From Siphonodentalium dalli (lineage: Eukaryota > Mollusca > Scaphopoda > Gadilida > Siphonodentaliidae), in NCBI GenBank assembly GCA_032622095.1, contig CP136061.1:39933797-39997796 (forward strand): DNA of 64,000 nucleotides. The letters run 5' to 3'. The notes beneath the pieces were generated by a model that worked only from the letters and a program-made list of their open reading frames with translations, was not told the DNA's origin and ran no database searches. Position numbers and translations under genes: made by a program. Of this stretch, positions 16,680-51,422 are shown piece by piece; positions within the stretch are counted from its first letter, which is position 1; each line of letters opens with the position of its first letter.

Positions 16680-17599
16680 TACAATACAACAACAAAAACT
16701 ATCAAAATTATATTAAGACAAAACGACATTTCCGATTAAGTTGAATTAAATTAAATTAAATGGGACCCCCTGCTCCAGTTTCTTAAGCCTTGACATTTCA
16801 AATTGGTTTATTTGTTATAATTTGTCTTTAAAATTTGAGTTCCATAGAGGCGATAGCTCGTTCGACATCACATATACTGCAAGTTCGTTCCTTTTGTGGT
16901 CTCCTTCTGCCTGTGCAGAACTGATGCAGGCATAAATTTTATATTAAACAAGCTGAAACAGGCTCTCTGCGTTAGGGATTTTGAAAAATCAAGTGGTAAT
17001 ACGGTCAAATTTCGTGATACTTTAGTGATAATACGGCTATATTTTGTTGAACAAAATGTTGATAAATAACAAGTTTTGGGAAATTTGATACCATAGTTGA
17101 CAGTGGTTAGCATTATTTTGGTTGCAACATACCTATTCTGATAACTAAAGAAGACATGTTGTTGTTGTTGTTGTTGTATATTGGTGGTATGGGGACGTCT
17201 GGTTGGATTGAGTACCTTTAAACCCATCATTCTGTTGAATGGCGCGGGCCGCAGTGAAAAGACATATCTAAAGAGCATACGCCTGGTCCGTAAATTGGTT
17301 CATATTGAACCTAAATATTAAAATTTATTTGATTCTGAAATAGGCCCATAGTGAGCTCATTTCAATTCGTGTGTTTTTTTATTTATTTAATTAAAAATAA
17401 TTAATTAAAATTTTGAAAAACTAACGCCGTTATAACCTCCGCCAGGATACCCCGAGTTACCACACCAAATTTAGTTTAAATCGGACCAGCAGTCTACCGA
17501 CATAGTGCGACCATCGGTCATCATGTTGCCGAAAAATATACAACTTTCTTTCTTAGCGCGACCGTGGTCGCGTTAAGTAAAAGCCATTGGAAAAGTGTG
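16680..17599. other. Non-coding; short (TTG)n tract at 17158-17176
   Basis: A minus-strand frame (16868-17278) crosses the triplet tract and reads it as poly-Gln, so it is a simple-repeat artefact. The triplet tract resembles the longer one at 24441-24481. Nothing else is supported. Confidence 0.5.
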
Positions 17600-18090
17600 A
17601 AGGGTACGTGTTATGCTGTTTGTAGATAGTTCAGCGGCCAAATCGAAAAAGATCTCTAGTTTAACGAGATACCCCTACCCACGGTAGAACAAGTTAAAAC
17701 CAACTTTTCGTTAAGAAGAAATATATATTGTTCACGAAAATGACAGCGAAAAATAACGGAATTGGTGGTGGCTATTGTCAAATCGACGATGAACGATACC
17801 CACCAGTGTCTTTTTCCAGAAATTAACGATTTTTGTCAAGTGAGCCCTGTGGCTATGTCCTAACTTATTTGCCAACATTGTTGGGGTTAACATTACTATA
17901 TCATATCATATCATACCTCTAATTGATATGAAAACAGTGTTGGTTAATTTGGATTTTCCTGCCATTTGGAGCCGAAAACATTATTAGTGAAATAATGGAT
18001 TTTAGCTACCCCGCCCAAAAAATTACATATGTTTGTTAAGAACTTTACAAAATGTCCCAATTGATCATAATGGGTCTCAAAATGACTCGT
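17600..18090 (+). repeat. Left arm of an inverted repeat pair (partner 24500-25350)
   Basis: Bases 17690-17960 match the reverse complement of ~25010-25285 closely ('aattggtggtggctattgtc', 'atgaacgatacc', 'tggctatgtcctaac'). Bases 17995-18085 match the reverse complement of two tandem segments on the right (24545-24660 and 24700-24830). Confidence 0.85.
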
Positions 18091-18149
18091 TCGCTGAAAA
18101 TTGGGCTCTGGGACACTGCATACGTTACAAAAGACGTGTTCGGGATTCC

Positions 18150-18415
18150 AGACCCAAGTTACAACAACAACACATTTTATTAACTATTACCACAGTAAGT
18201 GTCGCATATCACAAGTATTCCATTATCGCTTAAGATTGAAACGCAGTAGTTTGAGCTGTGACCTATTGGGTAATCACATTAAAACGCCCACTCTCTGTCG
18301 TTGTGGCAAAATAGAAACAGGACAGCATTACTTAATGTGTTTACGCCATGACGATCAAATATCACACCCCAAAGATAGTTCCGCATGCTGGTCACAACAA
18401 ACGAAGAACAGTTGA
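18150..18415 (+). pseudogene. LINE ORF2 C-terminal remnant with Cys/His motif
   Basis: One frame of 18101-18415 reads 'HYRLRLKRSSLSCDLL', then 'PTLCRCGKIETGQHYLMC'. This is the typical C-terminal signature of many animal LINE polymerases: a basic 'R.RSSL' helix, then a C-x-C-G...ET..H-Y-x-x-C cluster thought to bind nucleic acid. No polymerase domain lies upstream, so the copy is truncated. The next 90 bases are not open in frame; a short (gatag)n tract follows at 18476-18491. The LINE lies between the left inverted arm and the first ribozyme repeat. The subfamily cannot be decided from this piece. Confidence 0.7.
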
Positions 18416-18509
18416 ATGCGTGAATCATCTCATTGTTGTATATGGTCCCACATATTTTGCACAGAATATTATTGGGATAGGATAGGATAGAATATTTTAT
18501 TTCAATATA

Positions 18510-18790
18510 CACATATTAATGACGTGGCAACCAAGTGGAATCCGATGTATTCCGTATATACATGTACTACATGTAAACAGACATATACAATGTCGACTTA
18601 TCTAAATTAAGCGCTTTGCCCCTGATGAGTTGTCGGCGATAAATAGACACGAAACACTAGCTTAACCTTAAAGTGACTATCCAAGTACACGTAGTGTCGG
18701 GCATCACGGGGAACGAACGTTACCACAGTCAACGGCGGATGGTTGGGTATACGTACACCATTTTATATACAATGGTATATATACAATTGA
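18510..18790 (+). repeat. Ribozyme-bearing repeat unit, copy 1
   Basis: Direct repeat of ~24030-24280. Shared text includes 'tggaatccgatgtattccgt', 'acatgtaaacagacatata', the hammerhead core and 'gatggttgggtatac' followed by 'caccattttatatac', where similarity ends. The upstream 'acgtggcaaccaa-tggaatc' junction is also shared with ~23215-23235. No coding frame. Confidence 0.85.
18617..18703 (+). ncRNA. Hammerhead ribozyme (type I), copy 1
   Basis: All parts of a hammerhead are present in order. Stem I 5' strand TGCCC (18617-18621); core CTGATGA (18622-18628); stem II GT-GTC/GACAC (18629-18634 with bulged T18631, and 18646-18650) closed by an 11-base loop ending 'ataaata'; core GAA (18651-18653); stem III ACACTA/TAGTGT (18654-18659 and 18692-18697) with a 32-base loop; cleavage-site base C18698 after GT (a GUC triplet); stem I 3' strand GGGCA (18699-18703). 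Known hammerheads of this open-stem-I type are self-cleaving RNAs in Penelope-like elements, retrozymes and satellites. The copy at 24120-24202 keeps the same design. Activity is inferred, not shown. Confidence 0.85.
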
Positions 18791-18859
18791 TTGATTAATG
18801 CTAATACATTTTACAAATATTGTATTGTGGATTCGAGGGGTGGCATAGTCATGCTAGAC

Positions 18860-21830
18860 CCTGATAGAACTATCCTATAGCCTCAGTTAAACTGAGATCA
18901 TATCCATTCAGTCCGTGGTGTTTTCATAACTTAAAATAGCGTAAGCGGTCACACAAACAGTTAAACACTTGCATTTTCTTTATTTGTCAGCCGCTTTTTT
19001 GTAAAGAGTCACAGGCTGTCGGACACCAACACAGCTTTATATAAGGATTAACTGTCATGTGGACTGTTTTTATGGAGATGTAACGGTGAGGTAAGTGGAC
19101 ATAACTTGTATGTAAAACTTACCTCACCGTTACATCTCCATAAAAATAGTCCACATGACAGTTAATCCTTATATTTATATACATTTAGCGAAAAAGCCAC
19201 TTTTGTAAATATATTTAAATCGAAAAGTGTATCGTGACAAGATCAGCCCAAAATACCCAATAGCACCCTTGGCAAAAGTTAATAGGAACAATTTCTCTTG
19301 TTGAAACCCGATGATGTATTAAGTCAATCCTGCGCGAGTCAAAATGCGCCCAAAGCATTACGTGTTCGTCTTTCCAAACCTAATGACGTATCGATGGTGT
19401 TATTAGCTTGGTGTTATGAGGCGTTGCGCATTCACCAAGAAATAACTGCAACTAGCCACGTGGGCGCCGACCAATCAGAATGCTGGATTTAGTGATGACA
19501 ACACTTAGTGTGTAAATATATATCGTATAGTGTCGGGTATCATAGCCATTTGGACACAACATATGTTGATATTGAGAGCATAATCCCTTCAGTACATGAT
19601 GTGTCAAAGACTTCAAATGTGCCAGTTGCTTGCTGTGGAGTGCCACACGGTGCAGGCTTTCGGGAATCAACACATGTATATCCTGATAAAAACTAACCGT
19701 TGGCCGCACACTCGGTTGATATTGAGATCATATCATATCAGCACGTGGTGTCTTCAAATAAAGTAGGGGGTCCTCAAAATTTTGCCTTTCTTAGTTTCCA
19801 GCCACTTTTCATTCAGTGCTCATGCTTTCTGAAACCAATCCATCTATATAAATTGTTTACTTCCTTATGCAACTACCTATTGTGCAATGATATCGTTCCA
19901 TTTCGTGGGGTGTTCTGGTTTTCAAATTGGGTAGGTGGTAATACAAACAGTGAAAATTGAATTATTTATTTTCCGGTCGCTTTTTGTTAAGTGTCCCTGG
20001 CTGTCGGGTACCAACCTATCTAGTTGGTTCGCAAGAGCATTGCATCTTTTCTGACAGAACAGCCATTCAGCCACAATCTCGGGTGATATTGATAGCATAT
20101 GCATTCAGCTTGTGGTGTGTTCAAGACTTCAAATAGGGATTGGAGTCCCTAAGATAGTGAAAATTTGCCTTTTCGTTTACCGGCCACTTGTGGTAAAGTG
20201 CCATAGTCTTTTGGGAACCATCTCATCCATAACAGATGCATATTTCCGGATAACACTATCATTTGTCCGCACCCTGAGTTAACATTGAGAGTATATAATT
20301 TGTTTAAGACTTCAAGTGGGATAGTGGGGTCCTCAATACCTAGAACATTCGCACCAGGATTTCGGGGGAACCAAACCACCCATACCAATTAATACTTCCA
20401 TGCTAGGACTACCTTTTGTTCATACACTCAGCTAAGTTTGATGGCATATTACTTCAGTTCATGGTGTGTTCAAGATATTAATTGGGTTAAGGGGTTTCCA
20501 AACTAGTGAGTATTTGCCTTTCTCATTTGACAACCACGTTTTGTAAAGTGACCCATACATTCAAGAACCAACCCATCCATAAAAGATGTGAATTTCTTGA
20601 TCTAGCGTCCATTTCTCTACACCTTCAGTTAATATTGGGAGCATATAATTTCGGTTCATGTTGGGTTCAAGATTTCAAGTGGGGTAGTGTTGCCTCAAAA
20701 CAAAGAAAATTCACATTTTCGTATTTGACAGCTACCTTTTGTAAAGTTTCCCAGGATTTCTGGAACTAACCCACCATTACAAATTGTATATAATGATACC
20801 ACTACCTTTCTCTCACACACTGCGTCAATATTGAGAGCATATATATTCAGTTCATAGTGTGTTCAAGAGTTCAAATTGGTTAAGGAGACACAAAACTGAG
20901 AATTCACTGTTCTCGTTTGCTAGCCACTTTTTGTAAAGTGTCCCAGCCATTTGGAAACCAAAACATCCATTAAAGATGTATATTTCCATATATAACTATC
21001 ATTTGTACACACCCTCAGTATATTGAGATCATATCCGTTCAATTCGTGGTTTATTTAAAACTTTAAATGGGGTAGGGGGCTCAAAGAAAATTAAACGTTC
21101 GCATTCTCTGATAGCACTACCTTATACTTTCACACTGTCAGTTAATAATAAGAACATATATATTCGGTGCATGGTGTGTTCAAAAGTTTAAATGGGTGTA
21201 TAAAGGGGTCCCACAAAACAAAAAAAATTCGCCTTTGGCCTTTGCCATCCGCTTTTTGTAAAGACTAGTGTCGAAGGCTTTCTGGAACCAACCCATTCAT
21301 AAACATGTTGTATGTCCTGACATTACTACCCTTTGCCCACATCCTTAGTCAATATTTAGAGCAATAATTTCAGTTCGTGGTTTATTCAACTTTAACACTT
21401 CAATTGTGTAGGGGTTCCTCAAAACATAACACATTCGTCTTTCTTATTATCAGCCGCTTTGTGTAAAGCGACACAGGCACAAGCCAAACCATACAAATTA
21501 TGTATTCTCTTATATCATTACCTTCCATTCACACTCTCTGTTATGATAGAGAGCATATAGCTGCAGTTCGTATTGTGTTCAAGACTTTAAATCGGGTAGA
21601 GTTTTCTCGAAAAATTGAAAATTGCCGCGTTTTGTAAAGTGCCACACTATTTCTGGAACCAACCCATCCATAAACATTGTGTATGTCCTTATATAGCTAT
21701 CCCTTGTACAAACCCTCAGTTAACATTGAGATCATATTCTTTCAGTCTTTCAGTTCAAGACTTCTAATAGCGTAGGGGCACCTCAAAATATAGAACGTAT
21801 TTGAAATAACGCTTGCCACCTTGGTCAAAA
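18860..21830 (+). repeat. Highly diverged ~190-210 bp satellite array, about 12 units
   Basis: Recurring landmarks in fixed order: 'cagttaatattgag(a/t)(g/t)catat', 'ttcagttc(a/g)tggtgtgttcaa', 'cctcaaaa', 'gccactttttgtaaagtg', 'ggaaccaacccatccataa'. Units are visible from 18880 and from ~19520 to ~21800. Between ~19175 and ~19520 the array is interrupted by other sequence, and a hairpin element sits at 19038-19174. Heavy divergence marks an old array. Open frames across it are accidental. Confidence 0.8.
19038..19174. repeat. Near-perfect 58-bp-arm hairpin (fold-back element)
   Basis: The left arm (19038-19096, 'ataaggattaactgtcatgt' ... 'ggtgaggtaagt') and right arm (19117-19174) are reverse complements with one visible mismatch, separated by a 20-base loop. 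It lies within the satellite array, after 'caccaacacagcttt'. Arms this similar in such diverged surroundings mean a recent fold-back/MITE insertion or gene-conversion palindrome. A transcript would fold into a long double-stranded hairpin. Confidence 0.9.
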
Positions 21831-21879
21831 TAGTTTATGAGATATATGATGATCCGGCAATGCTTGGATAGTCACTATA

Positions 21880-22265
21880 CAATTCATGGATATCTACAGT
21901 GCTATATTATTGCTATAGCTATACATATACAAATATCCCTCCTAAATGGGCACACTACAATTGTGTATATACCACCACGAGTATACGCTCGGGTCATAAA
22001 CTAATAATGCTATATTATTCTTATAGCTAAAGATACACGTTAAATATACACGTGAAATTTCACCATTTCATATACAAACATATAAATACCCCACTGAACG
22101 GGCGCACTAAAACTGTGCATATGACACCACGAGTACACGCTCAGGTCACAAACTAACAATGCTATATTATTCGTATAGCTAATATTACACGCTAAATATA
22201 CAGCTATATTATCACTATAGCTATACACATTAATATCCCAAATAAATGGGTGCACCTAGATGTGC
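21880..22265 (+). repeat. Diverged ~165-bp tandem repeat, about 2.5 units
   Basis: 'gctatattatt(g/c)(c/t)tatagcta' recurs at ~21901, 22009, 22151 and 22204. 'ccaccacgagtatacgctc' and 'caccacgagtacacgctc' recur at ~21972 and 22124. No coding. Confidence 0.75.
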
Positions 22266-22639
22266 AGATGATGTCTGGACAATACTCATGAATTAATTCT
22301 CATCCATTAGCAATGCATGTGCTACATAGAGCCCACTGTTACCTGTAAAGAATGACAAATTCGTAATTGGTATCATGTTCTGGCATGCTAGAAAGAACCT
22401 AGGGCCCACTTGTTCATTTGGACAATCCAATTTGATTCTTTGCTCTATCTTGTCTGGATTTGCACACATGCGGGGCCAACTGGCATTTACCATTATTTCA
22501 ACCCATATCGTTGGGATGAGTGGTGGATGTTATGCTCTATTTCGCTAACATGGAATTAACATACAGATTGCATAAATATGCAACTTCTCCTGAATGGCAC
22601 TGCTATATACTGGTCAAGCCATTGGAGCCTGCATATAAT

Positions 22640-24060
22640 ATGCAAACTTAAACTGGAATCCGATGTATTCCATCACGAATATGACATCTATATTGCATGG
22701 AATGTGCAGAATAACAGTGCACGTGAAATGACACCTAATTGGAATCATACGTATTCCTTATATACATGTAAACAGGCATAAATAATGTCTAATGATATAA
22801 ATTACGCGGGATGAATGCTTTGCTCTCAAACGCCAACACATAATAAACATATACAGTGGACAAGTGAACGATGCACAATACGTACACAAATAACATCTTT
22901 GATAACTCGAAGACGTCAAATCTCTCATATTCAGGAACTACAAATTCCTCAATTGCAACACTGGCATCGTTAAATTCTTAACAAACAAGCCAATTAATTA
23001 TTGATTATACACGGACGTTACATACGGAATGATTGCATTAAAGTTGCAAATCTAACAGAACGTGGCAAAGACTAATATGGAATCCTATGCATTCCAGATA
23101 CATGCACATACAGAATGATTGTATGTATTTAGCAAATCCAAAACTCCACATAACATAGCAAAAACTACCATGGAATCCTATGTATTCCGATTGCAAATAA
23201 ACATCTTCCACTTCACGTGGTAACCAACTGGAATCTCATGTATTCCGTAAACAGGCATAAACAATGTCTAATTATCTAAATTACGCTGGGTGAATGCTTT
23301 GCTCTAAAACGCCAACACGGAATGAACATATACAGCGGACAAATGAACGATGCATAATACATACATAAAATACATAACTTCAATAACCCGAAGCCGTCAA
23401 ATATACATATTTTGACATTATTTAATCTTCGCCAAACCTCGAAATCTAAAAACTTTGACGGGTGCCAGATTGAAAACAAATGCGCCAATTAATATTGATC
23501 AATTAATTCTTGACGCAACAGTCATAAATATCTCACACAAAGATACACGGAAAGTCAAAATTATGCCACTAACAAAGTTATTAATTTCTTATCCCAACAT
23601 ATAGAGTATCAATTTCACACCATCGATGTGGTATCGATCATCACGTGATCAAACCAGCTTAATTTGGCTGGACTAGACTGGTTACTTCAAAATCCATTGG
23701 ACCCGCCTCTCTGCATGATCGAATGCCAACTGGCCACGTGCATGCTATAATACTAATCTCAAAATATCGGAATTCGCACTTTTCGTGAGCGACGTTTTAA
23801 ACTGGAATCCGATGTATTCCTTCACAGATACTACATACAGAATGATTGCATGAAATTTGAAAACCCAACCTACCACAAACGTGGCAAAGACTAATATGGA
23901 ATCCTATGCAATCCGGATATACAGAATGATTGCATGATATTTGCAAATCCAACGATTCCACATAACGTGGCTAAAACTGCCATGGAATCCTATGTATTCC
24001 AGATAGACATATTGCATGACATTTGCAAATAAAACAAATGGAATCTGATGTATTCCGTAT
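22640..24060 (+). repeat. Array of TGGAATCC(G/T)ATGTATTCC palindromic units
   Basis: The dyad GGAAT-N-ATTCC occurs near 22658, 22738, 23079, 23170, 23230, 23803, 23896, 23980 and 24039, and also at 18534. It is usually preceded by 'acgtggcaaagactaatatgg'-like text and followed by 'agaatgattgcatgaaatt'. Two larger units (~22740-22920 and ~23230-23410) continue into 'aaattacgc...gaatgctttgctct' where copies with a ribozyme have the hammerhead core. The stretch 22266-22640 has no feature I can support. Confidence 0.75.
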
Positions 24061-24280
24061 ACACATGTAATACATGTAAACAGACATATAAAAATGTCGA
24101 TTTATCTAATTAATGCGCTATGTCCCTGATGAGTGGTCGCGCTAAAATAGACACGAAACACTAGCTTAAAGTGACCATCCAAATTCAAGCAGTGTAGGGC
24201 ATTACGTTGAACATAACGCTACCTCTAGCCAAAGGCTGATGGTTGGGTATACATTCACCATTTTATATACAAATACAATC
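24030..24280 (+). repeat. Ribozyme-bearing repeat unit, copy 2
   Basis: Same orientation and limits as 18510-18790. It differs by scattered substitutions and small indels, indicating an old duplication or two independent insertions of one family. Confidence 0.85.
24120..24202 (+). ncRNA. Hammerhead ribozyme (type I), copy 2
   Basis: Stem I ATGTCC (24120-24125) pairs with GGGCAT (24197-24202), six pairs including one G-T. Core CTGATGA is 24126-24132. Stem II is 24133-24138 with 24150-24154 and one bulged G at 24135, the same place as the bulge in copy 1. The 11-base loop ends 'taaaata'. GAA is 24155-24157. Stem III ACACT/AGTGT is 24158-24162 with 24191-24195. The cleavage-site base is A24196 (a GUA triplet, allowed by the NUH rule). 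Relative to copy 1, stem I has C-to-T changed to a G-T wobble, and stem I gains one pair while stem III loses one. Structure is kept although loops differ. Confidence 0.83.
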
Positions 24281-24440
24281 CATTGTTTCATTATTTTGGT
24301 AGATTTAGAGGGACTCCTAACAATCATTATGGCAGCAACAATAATTTTGTTATGTATATGTTAGTCTATATTATGTGTCGTTACTTTAGTTCTACAAAGT
24401 CGCTATAAATTAATATAAGATTACATGTTAGAAATAACAT

Positions 24441-24441
24441 G

Positions 24442-24480
<39 letters not shown>

Positions 24481-24481
24481 A
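24441..24481 (+). repeat. (TGT)n microsatellite, ~13 repeats
   Basis: Uninterrupted trinucleotide tract. Frame prediction turns it into poly-Cys, which is an artefact. Confidence 0.95.
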
Positions 24482-24499
24482 ACTGGGGATTTGGAAGCA

Positions 24500-25350
24500 C
24501 GAGGACATCTTTAACCACTCTCGCGGTGTCTATTGATCCGGTTTTCATCATATGTATCATGACTTGGTCCCCATTAGAATCATTTAGAAAAGTGTGTTGT
24601 CATAAACATGTATTTTTTCTACCAAAACGTGTTCGGGGAAGCGGTAGCTAAAACCCAAAATCTGGCAAACCGTTCACAATATCTGTCAAATTATTTCTAC
24701 ACGTGATGTCCATACAATATTGGGTCCCATTCAGATCAATTAGACAATGTTTGTAAAGTCGTTAACAAAAACATGTAATTTTTCAACCAAAAACGTGTTT
24801 GGGGGAGTGTTAGCTAAAATCGAGTATCTCGCAAACAGTTCATAATTTCTGTTAACTTCTTTTTTAATATGCTTGTCAGATAACTACTACACCATATGGA
24901 TTAAATATATTAGCATTATTACAATATCCGTTTGAATGATAATATTTGAAAAATAATATTTTTGTGAAAAAGAGCGATTTTTCAAAACAAATAAAATATT
25001 TCGGCTCCAAATGGCAGAAAAATATAAATTAACCATCACTTTTTGCATTTCAAGTAGAGATATGATATGATGTAGTACTTTTAACACCAACAATGTTAGA
25101 AAATATGTTAGGACATAGCCGCAGGACTCGCTTTACCAAAAACGGTAATTTCTGGAAAAAGTCGCTGGTAGGTATCGTTCATCGTCGATTTGACAATAGC
25201 CACCACCAATTCCGTTATTGTTTACTATCACTTTCATCAACAGTATATATTTCTCCTTCAAAAACATTTGGTTTTAACTTGTTCTACCGTGGTGACCACT
25301 TTTAGCGTTTGGCCGCTGCACAAAGAGGAATGGGTCATTACGCAGACCTT
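24500..25350 (-). repeat. Right arm of the inverted repeat pair (partner 17600-18090)
   Basis: Reverse-complement match of the left arm, with an internal tandem duplication: 'accaaaa(a)cgtgtt(c/t)ggggga' units at ~24620 and ~24788. The left arm has the corresponding segment once. Short frames (25093-25402) are accidental. Confidence 0.8.
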
Positions 25351-25740
25351 TTTTCTAAAAACATGGCAGCACAATAAAATGAAAATGAATTTCAAAAGAT
25401 GACAGCTATCGAATTTGAAAACAATTTAAATATAGCTTCGCAACGAGTATAGATATTATTCCTTTACCAACGGATGGGTTAAACATCTGTTAATAATAAT
25501 GAATTCAATTTGTGTTGTGTTATTTAGTGTTGGCTGTGAGATAAACAATGGTCAAACGGGCGGTTAAATAATTTCGTCAACATGAAAAGACACATTTAAA
25601 ATGGAACTATATTTTTCTTGAATGTGCCTTTACTTCCTCTTTGGTTCGGATAAGGAAATCAATATTAATTTGTTTTAACACCAACTGTTTCGAGGTCGTT
25701 CATCCTCGTCAAAATGTGATAAAAAGAATCTCAAGTTCAT

Positions 25741-50195: not shown

Positions 50196-50311
50196 TTTAA
50201 TTATAAAATAAATCCTCTGTGTATCGTTCCTCCTTCAGTAAAACTGGCAACGACATTAACACGGAATAGCGATTAACCAACGACGATAAACGCCAATACT
50301 CAAAATATAAC
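50196..50311 (+). repeat. Decayed SINE body next to the GPCR start
   Basis: 'cctctgtgtatcgttcctcc', 'cagtaaaactggcaacga' and 'acgacgataaacgccaata' parallel the SINE body at ~33371-33450. The tRNA head is lost or too diverged to see. Confidence 0.6.
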
Positions 50312-50360
50312 TGGATTAAATATTAACATAGAATCGTGTTTTTTCTTGAAGGGGAGTATT

Positions 50361-51422
50361 ATGGTTCGTGTGGAATATGGAATGGAGAACGCCACGGATT
50401 GGTTAGGCTATCCGTTATGGAATGGTTTCATGGCACCCGCTAATCACTCTGCAAATCAAAACATCTACAATCTGATTAATAGCTGGGTGTTGACTATTTT
50501 TCAGCCAGTAATTTTCCTTCTCGGTGTGGTCGGAAATGTTCTTTCTATTATCGTTTTCATTCGAGGTACTTGGAATCATGCACCAATGCCGATTTATCTC
50601 ATAACACTGGCTGTCACAGACACTTCCAGTCTGGCTTATGGCATGATGACTTCGTGGATACACGCTATACTTGAATGGAAGATAACAACCACTTCGAATC
50701 TTGCTTGTAAAAGTGTATTGTTCGCATATTATGTGCTCCCCTATTTCTCTAGTTGGATAATAGTTTCAATAACGGTCGAAAGAGCTATAGTTTTACTATT
50801 TCCAAACAGATGGAAGTGCACACGCAGAAAGGCCAAGTTCTTGCTAATTTTCCTGGGGATATTCATGTGTGTGATTTGCAGCCATTTTATATATGGAATG
50901 CATCTGGAAAGGGGCTATTGTCTCTGTAATACGAAGAAATACGATAATTTTATCAGATTTATTTGGTCATGGATAGACCTGTTAGTGGGATCTGTCGTCC
51001 CGTCAGTCATTCTTGTTGTCGCCAATGCCGCTATAATATGGCGAATTAGAAGGAATGCCAGAAACATGTCAGAATTAAGAGGAAACAACAGAGGAACCGG
51101 ACAGTCGTATTCAGAGACTACGTATACTAAGATTCTGATCGTGTTGAGCGTAGAGTATGTGGTGACCACGCTGCCTCACTGTGTCGTGACTGTAATCTGC
51201 GACAATGTGTCGGCGACCACATACAAGGAGTCCATCGGAAAGATAGATCTAGCTGCAACCATCAGTATTCTACTCCTGAATAGTCATAATGCCGCTAATT
51301 TCTATCTTTACTGTTTAAGCGTCTCGACGTTTAGGAGGCAGCTTTCACTGTTAATTCCATGTTGTCGTCCGTATCGTGGCCAACATCAACTTGTAGAAAC
51401 ACAAGAAGTACGAGGAGCATAA
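50361..51422 (+). CDS. Orphan class A (rhodopsin-like) G protein-coupled receptor, intronless
   Basis: A 353-residue seven-helix receptor of the plasma membrane. Start: ATG at 50361 with A at -3 and G at +4; an upstream in-frame TTG is ignored. Two N-glycosylation sites lie in the N-terminus (N10, N28). TM1 (~41-67) has GNVLS; TM2 (~77-96) LAVTD with Asp87; Cys116 at the top of TM3 probably bonds to Cys187/189 in loop 2. TM3 ends V-E-R-A, a DRY variant. TM5 has Pro214. TM6 (~255-279) has TTLPHC but lacks the CWxP Trp. TM7 reads N-F-Y-L-Y (313-317) where NPxxY is usual, then FRR and a CC pair (334-335) for palmitoylation. NFxLY in TM7 is typical of FMRFamide/TRH-receptor-like and lineage-expanded invertebrate receptors. 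A peptide ligand is inference; chemosensory use is the alternative. Confidence 0.93.
   Translation: MVRVEYGMENATDWLGYPLWNGFMAPANHSANQNIYNLINSWVLTIFQPVIFLLGVVGNVLSIIVFIRGTWNHAPMPIYLITLAVTDTSSLAYGMMTSWIHAILEWKITTTSNLACKSVLFAYYVLPYFSSWIIVSITVERAIVLLFPNRWKCTRRKAKFLLIFLGIFMCVICSHFIYGMHLERGYCLCNTKKYDNFIRFIWSWIDLLVGSVVPSVILVVANAAIIWRIRRNARNMSELRGNNRGTGQSYSETTYTKILIVLSVEYVVTTLPHCVVTVICDNVSATTYKESIGKIDLAATISILLLNSHNAANFYLYCLSVSTFRRQLSLLIPCCRPYRGQHQLVETQEVRGA

Follow-up and report, generated by a model that had tools for sequence, protein, structure and literature searches.

A type I hammerhead motif in a dispersed non-coding repeat of Siphonodentalium dalli and repeat copies that begin at its predicted cut

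The DNA analysed here, called the window, is a stretch of 64,000 nucleotides from the scaphopod mollusc Siphonodentalium dalli (GenBank assembly GCA_032622095.1, contig CP136061.1, positions 39,933,797 to 39,997,796), and it contains two hammerhead self-cleaving ribozyme motifs, both on the plus strand and within a non-coding repeat. Copy 1 spans 18617..18703 and is supported by its sequence, by a match to a structural descriptor and by an alignment of the repeat family (A1). Its core consists of CTGATGA (C3-A9, 18622-18628), G10.1 at 18629 and GAAA at 18651-18654, with both core strings where a preliminary description of the window had put them. The G-C pair claimed to close stem II is present at G10.1, and stem II (18629-18634/18646-18650, GT(T)GTC/GACAC) carries one bulged base. 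Stem I pairs TGCCC at 18617-18621 with GGGCA at 18699-18703, the five correctly placed base pairs of the preliminary description. Stem III pairs ACACT (18654-18658) with AGTGT (18693-18697) and has five base pairs, or the six first reported if A18659-T18692 is counted, around a loop III of 32-34 nt where 32 had been given. The GUC triplet ends in C17 at 18698, and the cut is predicted between 18698 and 18699. Just upstream, GCGCT at 18611..18615 is proposed to form a Watson-Crick contact with loop II (18635-18638). Copy 2, identified from its sequence and a descriptor match, spans 24121..24201 with its core at 24126-24132 and 24155-24158, and its cut is predicted between 24196 (A17) and 24197. 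The invariant residues C3 U4 G5 A6 N7 G8 A9, G12 A13 A14, A15.1-U16.1 and H17 are present in both window copies, and in both the descriptor places three helices around the core with stem I open, which is the type I layout. Judged from sequence, the motif is by structural definition a type I hammerhead, located where the preliminary description placed it.

Both strands of the window were searched with a strict descriptor that requires stems I and III of 5 bp, the strings CTGANGA and GAAA, no more than one bulge in stem II, and H17; it matched twice, at copies 1 and 2. A single match was obtained in 200 first-order Markov windows with the same dinucleotide make-up. The bare string CTGANGA..GAA was unremarkable, with 12 occurrences in the window compared to 10.1 expected. 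The earlier opinion that a chance origin is unlikely thus holds for the full descriptor, the bare string alone being common.

Both motifs belong to a dispersed repeat family (52 matches reported, the best 40 of 696 candidates scored) whose copies have a well-defined right end (..CACCATTTTATATACAAA) and left ends that vary. Repeat copy 1 (18518..18772) is 5'-truncated and has a 97% identical copy on C3. The part of it that follows the cut is a fragment of 74 nt (18699..18772) reaching the fixed right end ..ATACAA, and homologues of this fragment are found at other genomic sites, singly or as tandem repeats. Repeat copy 2 is long and non-coding (21850..24273, left end placed to within ~50 bases) and ends in hammerhead copy 2, followed by a post-cut fragment (24197..24273) that runs to the fixed right end ATACAAA. 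Inside it the region just upstream of the hammerhead is repeated twice without the hammerhead, at 22712..22823 and at 23194..23303. No stop-to-stop stretch of 100 amino acids (aa) was found between 18415 and 26273, in agreement with the first assignment of the motif to a non-coding repeat.

The distance from the first base 3' of the cut to ATACAA ranged from 69 to 80 nt over 63 units, and in 54 of them it was 75 or 76 nt. Past ATACAA, no more than six bases match in 41 of the 47 distinct right ends, and at least nine in the other six. Some right ends repeat their terminal bases (L052, L080 and L101), and a short AC-rich stretch that looks hairpin-like by eye adjoins the right end. Successive hammerheads lie 2304-2417 bp apart in L034, L035 and L039, giving a unit of about 2.3 kb, and shorter spacings of 489 and 552 bp were seen in L003 and L009. 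Such right ends are the pattern of tandem units copied from an internal start; tandem or partial-tandem units with a right end downstream of the hammerhead are also a trait of Penelope-like elements. Linear dimers with a 5' end of their own at TGACATTC, which follows the right end in L034, were considered and dropped. Ten loci with TGACATTC were read among at least 53 matches; nine of these (seven distinct) are directly preceded by the right end of another unit, and the tenth, L049, is truncated. Since right ends directly precede TGACATTC and often run a few bases into it, TGACATTC was taken as the natural continuation of the tandem unit.

Conservation was measured on alignment A1, which holds 68 distinct copies of the ribozyme region after removal of 4 of 74 copies with large deletions and of two identical rows; near-duplicates were retained (L024/L025, L026/L029, L013/L015 and window copy 1/L002). 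Core residues were kept in nearly all of the 68 rows (C3 67, U4 65, G5 68, A6 68, G8 64, A9 68, G12 63, A13 65, A14 68, A15.1 67 and U16.1 66). At N7, the one free core position, T (48) and C (20) alternate as the ribozyme allows, and residue 17 is C in 52 rows, A in the other 16, and in no row G or T. An intact core was present in 52 rows, of which 28 also have all 14 tested pairs. Within three subfamilies defined by a custom script (37, 14 and 17 rows), deviation was 2.5% in the core (19/748), 3.9% in the stems, 6.5% in loop II, 5.3% in loop III (119/2261) and 11.7% in the flanks (222/1901). The core was significantly less variable than the loops (p 0.0017 for loop III) and the flanks (p 7e-16), and its difference from the stems was not significant (p 0.10). 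Paired cells made up 94.6% over 17 pairs, three of them in the proposed loop II contact, compared to 21-48% in slid controls. These three pairs (helix 1) are kept in 92.6% of cells, with GCGC/GGCG pairing in most copies; U-A replaces G-C in 8 of the 17 rows of the third subfamily, g3, and six of these read exactly TCGCC/GGCGA. This compensatory swap is probably one inherited event, and contacts between stem I and loop II of type I hammerheads are described as mostly non-canonical in the part of the source available to us (PMC6155905). The family-wide retention of the core, the variation at N7 and the absence of G at residue 17 support the type I assignment made from copy 1, as do a few copies that start at the predicted scissile bond.

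A pattern for the bases that follow the cut was found at 29 places, 24 of which are preceded by the ribozyme's own 3' strand; at the other five the sequence changes at the cut. Because this pattern requires the bases at the cut, a second sample was drawn with two queries whose first bases lie 9 and 12 bases beyond the cut. All listed places were read except C1:40054880, which is probably the duplicate of window copy 2 to which L033 belongs. When tandem units and segmental duplicates are counted once, this sample contains 28 left ends (25 places) in the interval from -110 to +10; the cut position had been fixed beforehand by the preliminary description. Excluded were L109 (an internal deletion, placed at -50 by the script), L045 at -113, any end past +10 (L115, for example), L042 (+3, outside the second sample), L118 (first pattern only) and the inverted second copies in L071, L072 and L073, and L096 was retained at its script value of -9 though the match is probably due to chance. 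When all 127 units are considered, redundancy included, 76 extend beyond the ribozyme or reach the first base of the retrieved stretch. Separately, L073 (C4:46980700-46981060) holds a short tandem array of inverted right ends with a ~41-bp period beside a direct copy.

The script placed L051 and L070 at position 0, L050 at -1, L052 at -2 and L113 at -3. By these values 5 of 28 left ends fall in -3..0 (p 0.002), nine in -3..+4 (p 5e-5) and two exactly at 0 (p 0.02). Since the best-scoring reference of the script may belong to another subfamily, each copy was also corrected by hand to the base of its own subfamily at -1. The first unit of L050 has GTC where its junction has A, and L113 has A where its nearest relatives, L005 and L010, have GTC. 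After correction, L050, L051, L070 and L113 begin exactly at the cut and L052 is ambiguous (-2..0); under a uniform model p is 8e-5 for four exact ends and 3e-6 for five. Nine ends lie in 0..+4 (p 1e-6), or eight of 27 (p 9e-6) without L073, which is doubtful because an inverted repeat adjoins it. In L050, L051, L052 and L070 the cut end directly follows the right end of another unit plus 2-3 bases, and in L113 it is preceded by other DNA. The post-cut fragment is repeated in tandem in L051, every 80 bp, and in L070, every 79 bp. The junction pattern ATACAAA-N0-6-GGGCAYCAC gave 16 matches (10 in the element and 6 by chance) compared to one for a backward control; a control pattern stayed near noise (32 versus 23) and was uninformative.

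Collectively, these results suggest, with good probability as far as sequence can indicate, that the repeat is a non-coding retroelement with Penelope-like anatomy, some copies of which derive from reverse-transcribed, self-cleaved RNA joined to other templates. The type I hammerhead would sit ~75 nt upstream of the start of reverse transcription. The long transcript, with a unit of about 2.3 kb that is often head-to-tail, would mostly be reverse-transcribed uncut, leftwards from the internal start, so that copies would share their right end and be truncated to varying degrees at the 5' end. If the hammerhead cuts first, the template would stop at the cut, so that the complementary DNA (cDNA) would be only about 75-80 nt long and would begin at the nucleotide just after the scissile bond. 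The enzyme may then continue at the start site of another RNA, thereby joining both; template jumping by a non-long-terminal-repeat (non-LTR) enzyme is the subject of PMC8857657, as far as the accessible part of that source goes. The enzyme itself may be supplied by a GIY-YIG retroelement of the same genome. Germ-line self-cleavage, reverse transcription of the cut RNA, template jumping and this enzyme supply are thus the presumed steps that would connect the observed ends.

The closest comparison is Poseidon of Anolis, for which the following is taken from the part of the report by Frangieh et al. available to us (PMC11167929). Reverse transcription of Poseidon starts within the frame, 111-118 nt from its beginning, at an AC-rich stem loop; its hammerhead cuts at +26, and genomic right ends coincide with the start sites. 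By subtraction, the start lies 85-92 nt past the hammerhead cut, a distance similar to the 75-76 nt that precede ATACAA in most units here. In both elements a hammerhead lies upstream of an internal start that sets the right end of copies, and units are tandem or partly tandem. The element described here was read as moved by a Penelope-type enzyme because its right end lies ~75 nt past the cut, by an AC-rich, hairpin-like stretch, as in Poseidon. It differs in being non-coding and in having a few genomic copies that begin at the cut, whereas in the same part of the Poseidon report no reads were found at the hammerhead cut and insertion occurred without cleavage in vitro. Minimal hammerheads are already known in Penelope-like elements (PMC7761336 and PMC6155905, consulted in part) and are described as lacking helix III (PMC7761336), in contrast to the stem III of 5-6 bp with a long loop found here. 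The available part of PMC3774820 describes R2 and other long interspersed nuclear elements (LINEs) with 5' hepatitis delta virus-like ribozymes, in which self-cleavage likewise sets the 5' end of the RNA template. There, a different ribozyme frees the element at its 5' end, whereas here only ~75 nt would stay on the start site.

The spacings and junctions also bear on a second interpretation, that of an ordinary metazoan retrozyme, in which the hammerhead would release a monomer from a multimeric transcript by two cuts, and tandem copies would arise by reverse transcription of the circularised monomer. As described in the accessible part of PMC7229834, metazoan non-LTR retrozymes resemble the present family in being non-coding, partly tandem repeats with type I hammerheads that coexist with retroelements of the Penelope kind, and here too GIY-YIG retroelements coexist in the genome. 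Some of the hammerheads are merely 489 and 552 bp apart, which also favours this view. The retrozymes of that source measure 150-450 bp and are thought to move as circles; the present units of about 2.3 kb are longer. In addition, the fixed right end is not a ribozyme end and lies outside the ribozyme, ~75 nt past the cut. A circle would reunite the two halves of the ribozyme, whereas at the cut-site junctions the cut end adjoins a right end followed by 2-3 bases. We therefore regard an ordinary retrozyme as unlikely. The link to Penelope-like elements or retrozymes made in the preliminary description is partly right: the anatomy is Penelope-like, but the repeat lacks the coding frame of such an element and does not have the size published for retrozymes.

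Several observations weigh against the proposed retroelement, and the first group concerns the ribozyme itself. The preliminary description had set an Rfam covariance-model scan beforehand as the test by which the hammerhead could be refuted, and this test came out negative. No Rfam hammerhead was found at E up to 10 in 17500-25500, which includes both copies, or in the 151 bases of 18590-18740 (copy 1 alone), and none exceeded the gathering threshold in the window. Six further loci gave unrelated matches only, without a hammerhead, at E up to 10. Genome-wide, RF00163 gave a single sub-threshold match (24.1 bits versus a cut-off of 34), which is uninformative because sub-threshold RF00163 matches also occur in 11 of 14 control genomes. 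The RF00163 model has 45 positions whereas the motif here spans ~87, and for this reason the miss was read as a limit of the model, with the long loop III as the presumed cause. The motif is not filed under RF00163 or another Rfam hammerhead family because the gathering threshold was not reached. Stem covariation in A1 was not above that of shuffles. The minimum-energy fold differs from the hammerhead in both window copies; the constrained hammerhead has -14.6 versus -17.3 kcal/mol for the free fold in copy 1 (gap 2.7) and -19.4 versus -24.3 kcal/mol in copy 2 (gap 4.9), values in which tertiary contacts are not modelled. Shuffled sequences gave folding z scores of 0.79 for copy 1 and -1.57 for copy 2.

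The second group concerns the left ends. The script alone places 2 of 28 at position 0, and two of the four exact ends depend on the hand correction. The uniform model is crude, and local density (-20..+10, n = 18) gives p 0.002 for four exact ends and 0.0002 for five. A second cluster of left ends was noticed post hoc at -77..-74 (4 of 28, p 0.013), at the start of the hammerhead core (L050, L070, L071/L072 and L078), which shows that the cut is not the only position where left ends accumulate. L070 (C3:214464900-214465740) and L132 (C6:43589450-43589740) are the same insertion with the same right flank, on two different chromosomes, and have five units and one unit, respectively, which indicates that the number of array units also changes in DNA.

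The Rfam result, the lack of significant covariation, the non-optimal predicted fold and the second cluster are what would be expected if the hammerhead were a dead relic, kept through the youth of the copies, and if the left ends near the cut were coincidence or marked stops of reverse transcriptase on a structured RNA. A stalled enzyme would, by our reasoning, be expected to stop before stem I opens and not after the innermost pair of stem I has been copied. The core also varies less than the loops and flanks, its lower deviation relative to the stems falling short of significance, and changes are seen at the tolerated positions N7 and 17. On balance a relic appears improbable.

Convincing target-site duplications were absent in 30 loci, with only 6-7 bp repeats in some, which also tells against the retroelement. 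Together with the tandem copies and the short hairpin-like stretch near the right end, seen by eye, their absence would fit a DNA transposon or a rolling-circle (Helitron-like) element in which a hammerhead occurs by chance. Such an element is at odds with the combination of scattered left ends and a fixed right end, for which Helitron-like and satellite readings were set aside. The repeated terminal bases seen at some right ends are consistent with priming at that site, and the descriptor match has a low chance probability. We consider this explanation very improbable.

The putative enzyme source was sought among GIY-YIG elements of the genome. GIY-YIG domains numbered 146 among the matches listed, many of them in open frames of 780-820 aa in tandem arrays. 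Arrays with frames of 790-820 aa have periods of about 4.4-4.6 kb (for example C5:66869267-66882835 and C1:118763839-118777947). A second open frame between the arrayed GIY-YIG frames, 479 aa in L127, had no Pfam match at E 0.001. One sampled frame of 670 aa contains the GIY-YIG domain and lacks a reverse transcriptase match in Pfam and among PDB sequences. Calling these elements Penelope-like consequently rests on context, because no reverse transcriptase was recognised in the sampled frame. Sixteen stretches from GIY-YIG elements were compared with the repeat, 10 with or behind the domain and six near frame starts. The right end, with up to nine errors allowed, was found in 0 of 16, and ribozyme and 3'-region profiles likewise matched 0 of 16 at E up to 10, a further point that does not favour the supply of the enzyme by these elements. 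The window element has no open frame for a reverse transcriptase with GIY-YIG between 18415 and 26273. Lacking a coding frame, the repeat is not filed as a Penelope-like element and is compared with such elements in mechanism only.

Behind the GIY-YIG frames of L126 and L127 lies a short motif, CTGAAGAAGGTA..TAC[CT]GAAACG. We take it to resemble the minimal hammerheads of Penelope-like elements and treat it as a candidate.

Two other features of the window were recorded, and no transfer RNA gene was found in 17500-25500. A long, nearly perfect inverted repeat at 19067-19146 can form a hairpin and has sub-threshold matches to microRNA families on both strands. At 50277-51422, a 381-aa open frame contains a rhodopsin-type 7-transmembrane receptor domain (PF00001, E 1.8e-16).

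As far as the search went, the long non-coding unit, the long loop III that presumably hides the motif from Rfam and, above all, the copies that begin at the cut are new; no report of copies beginning at a hammerhead cut was found in the open-licence literature at the level of titles and abstract openings. Tentatively, and with the chances close to evenly divided, genomic DNA may here record the cutting of a hammerhead in the germ line, with the cut RNA of ~75 nt serving as a template for retrotransposition. If this is true, the hammerhead would act as a length limiter that removes most of a copy, and standard covariance models would be shown able to miss hammerheads with a long loop III. The fraction of copies that start at the cut would then reflect how active the ribozyme has been in the course of evolution, and determining it would become a counting problem, feasible in any assembled genome.
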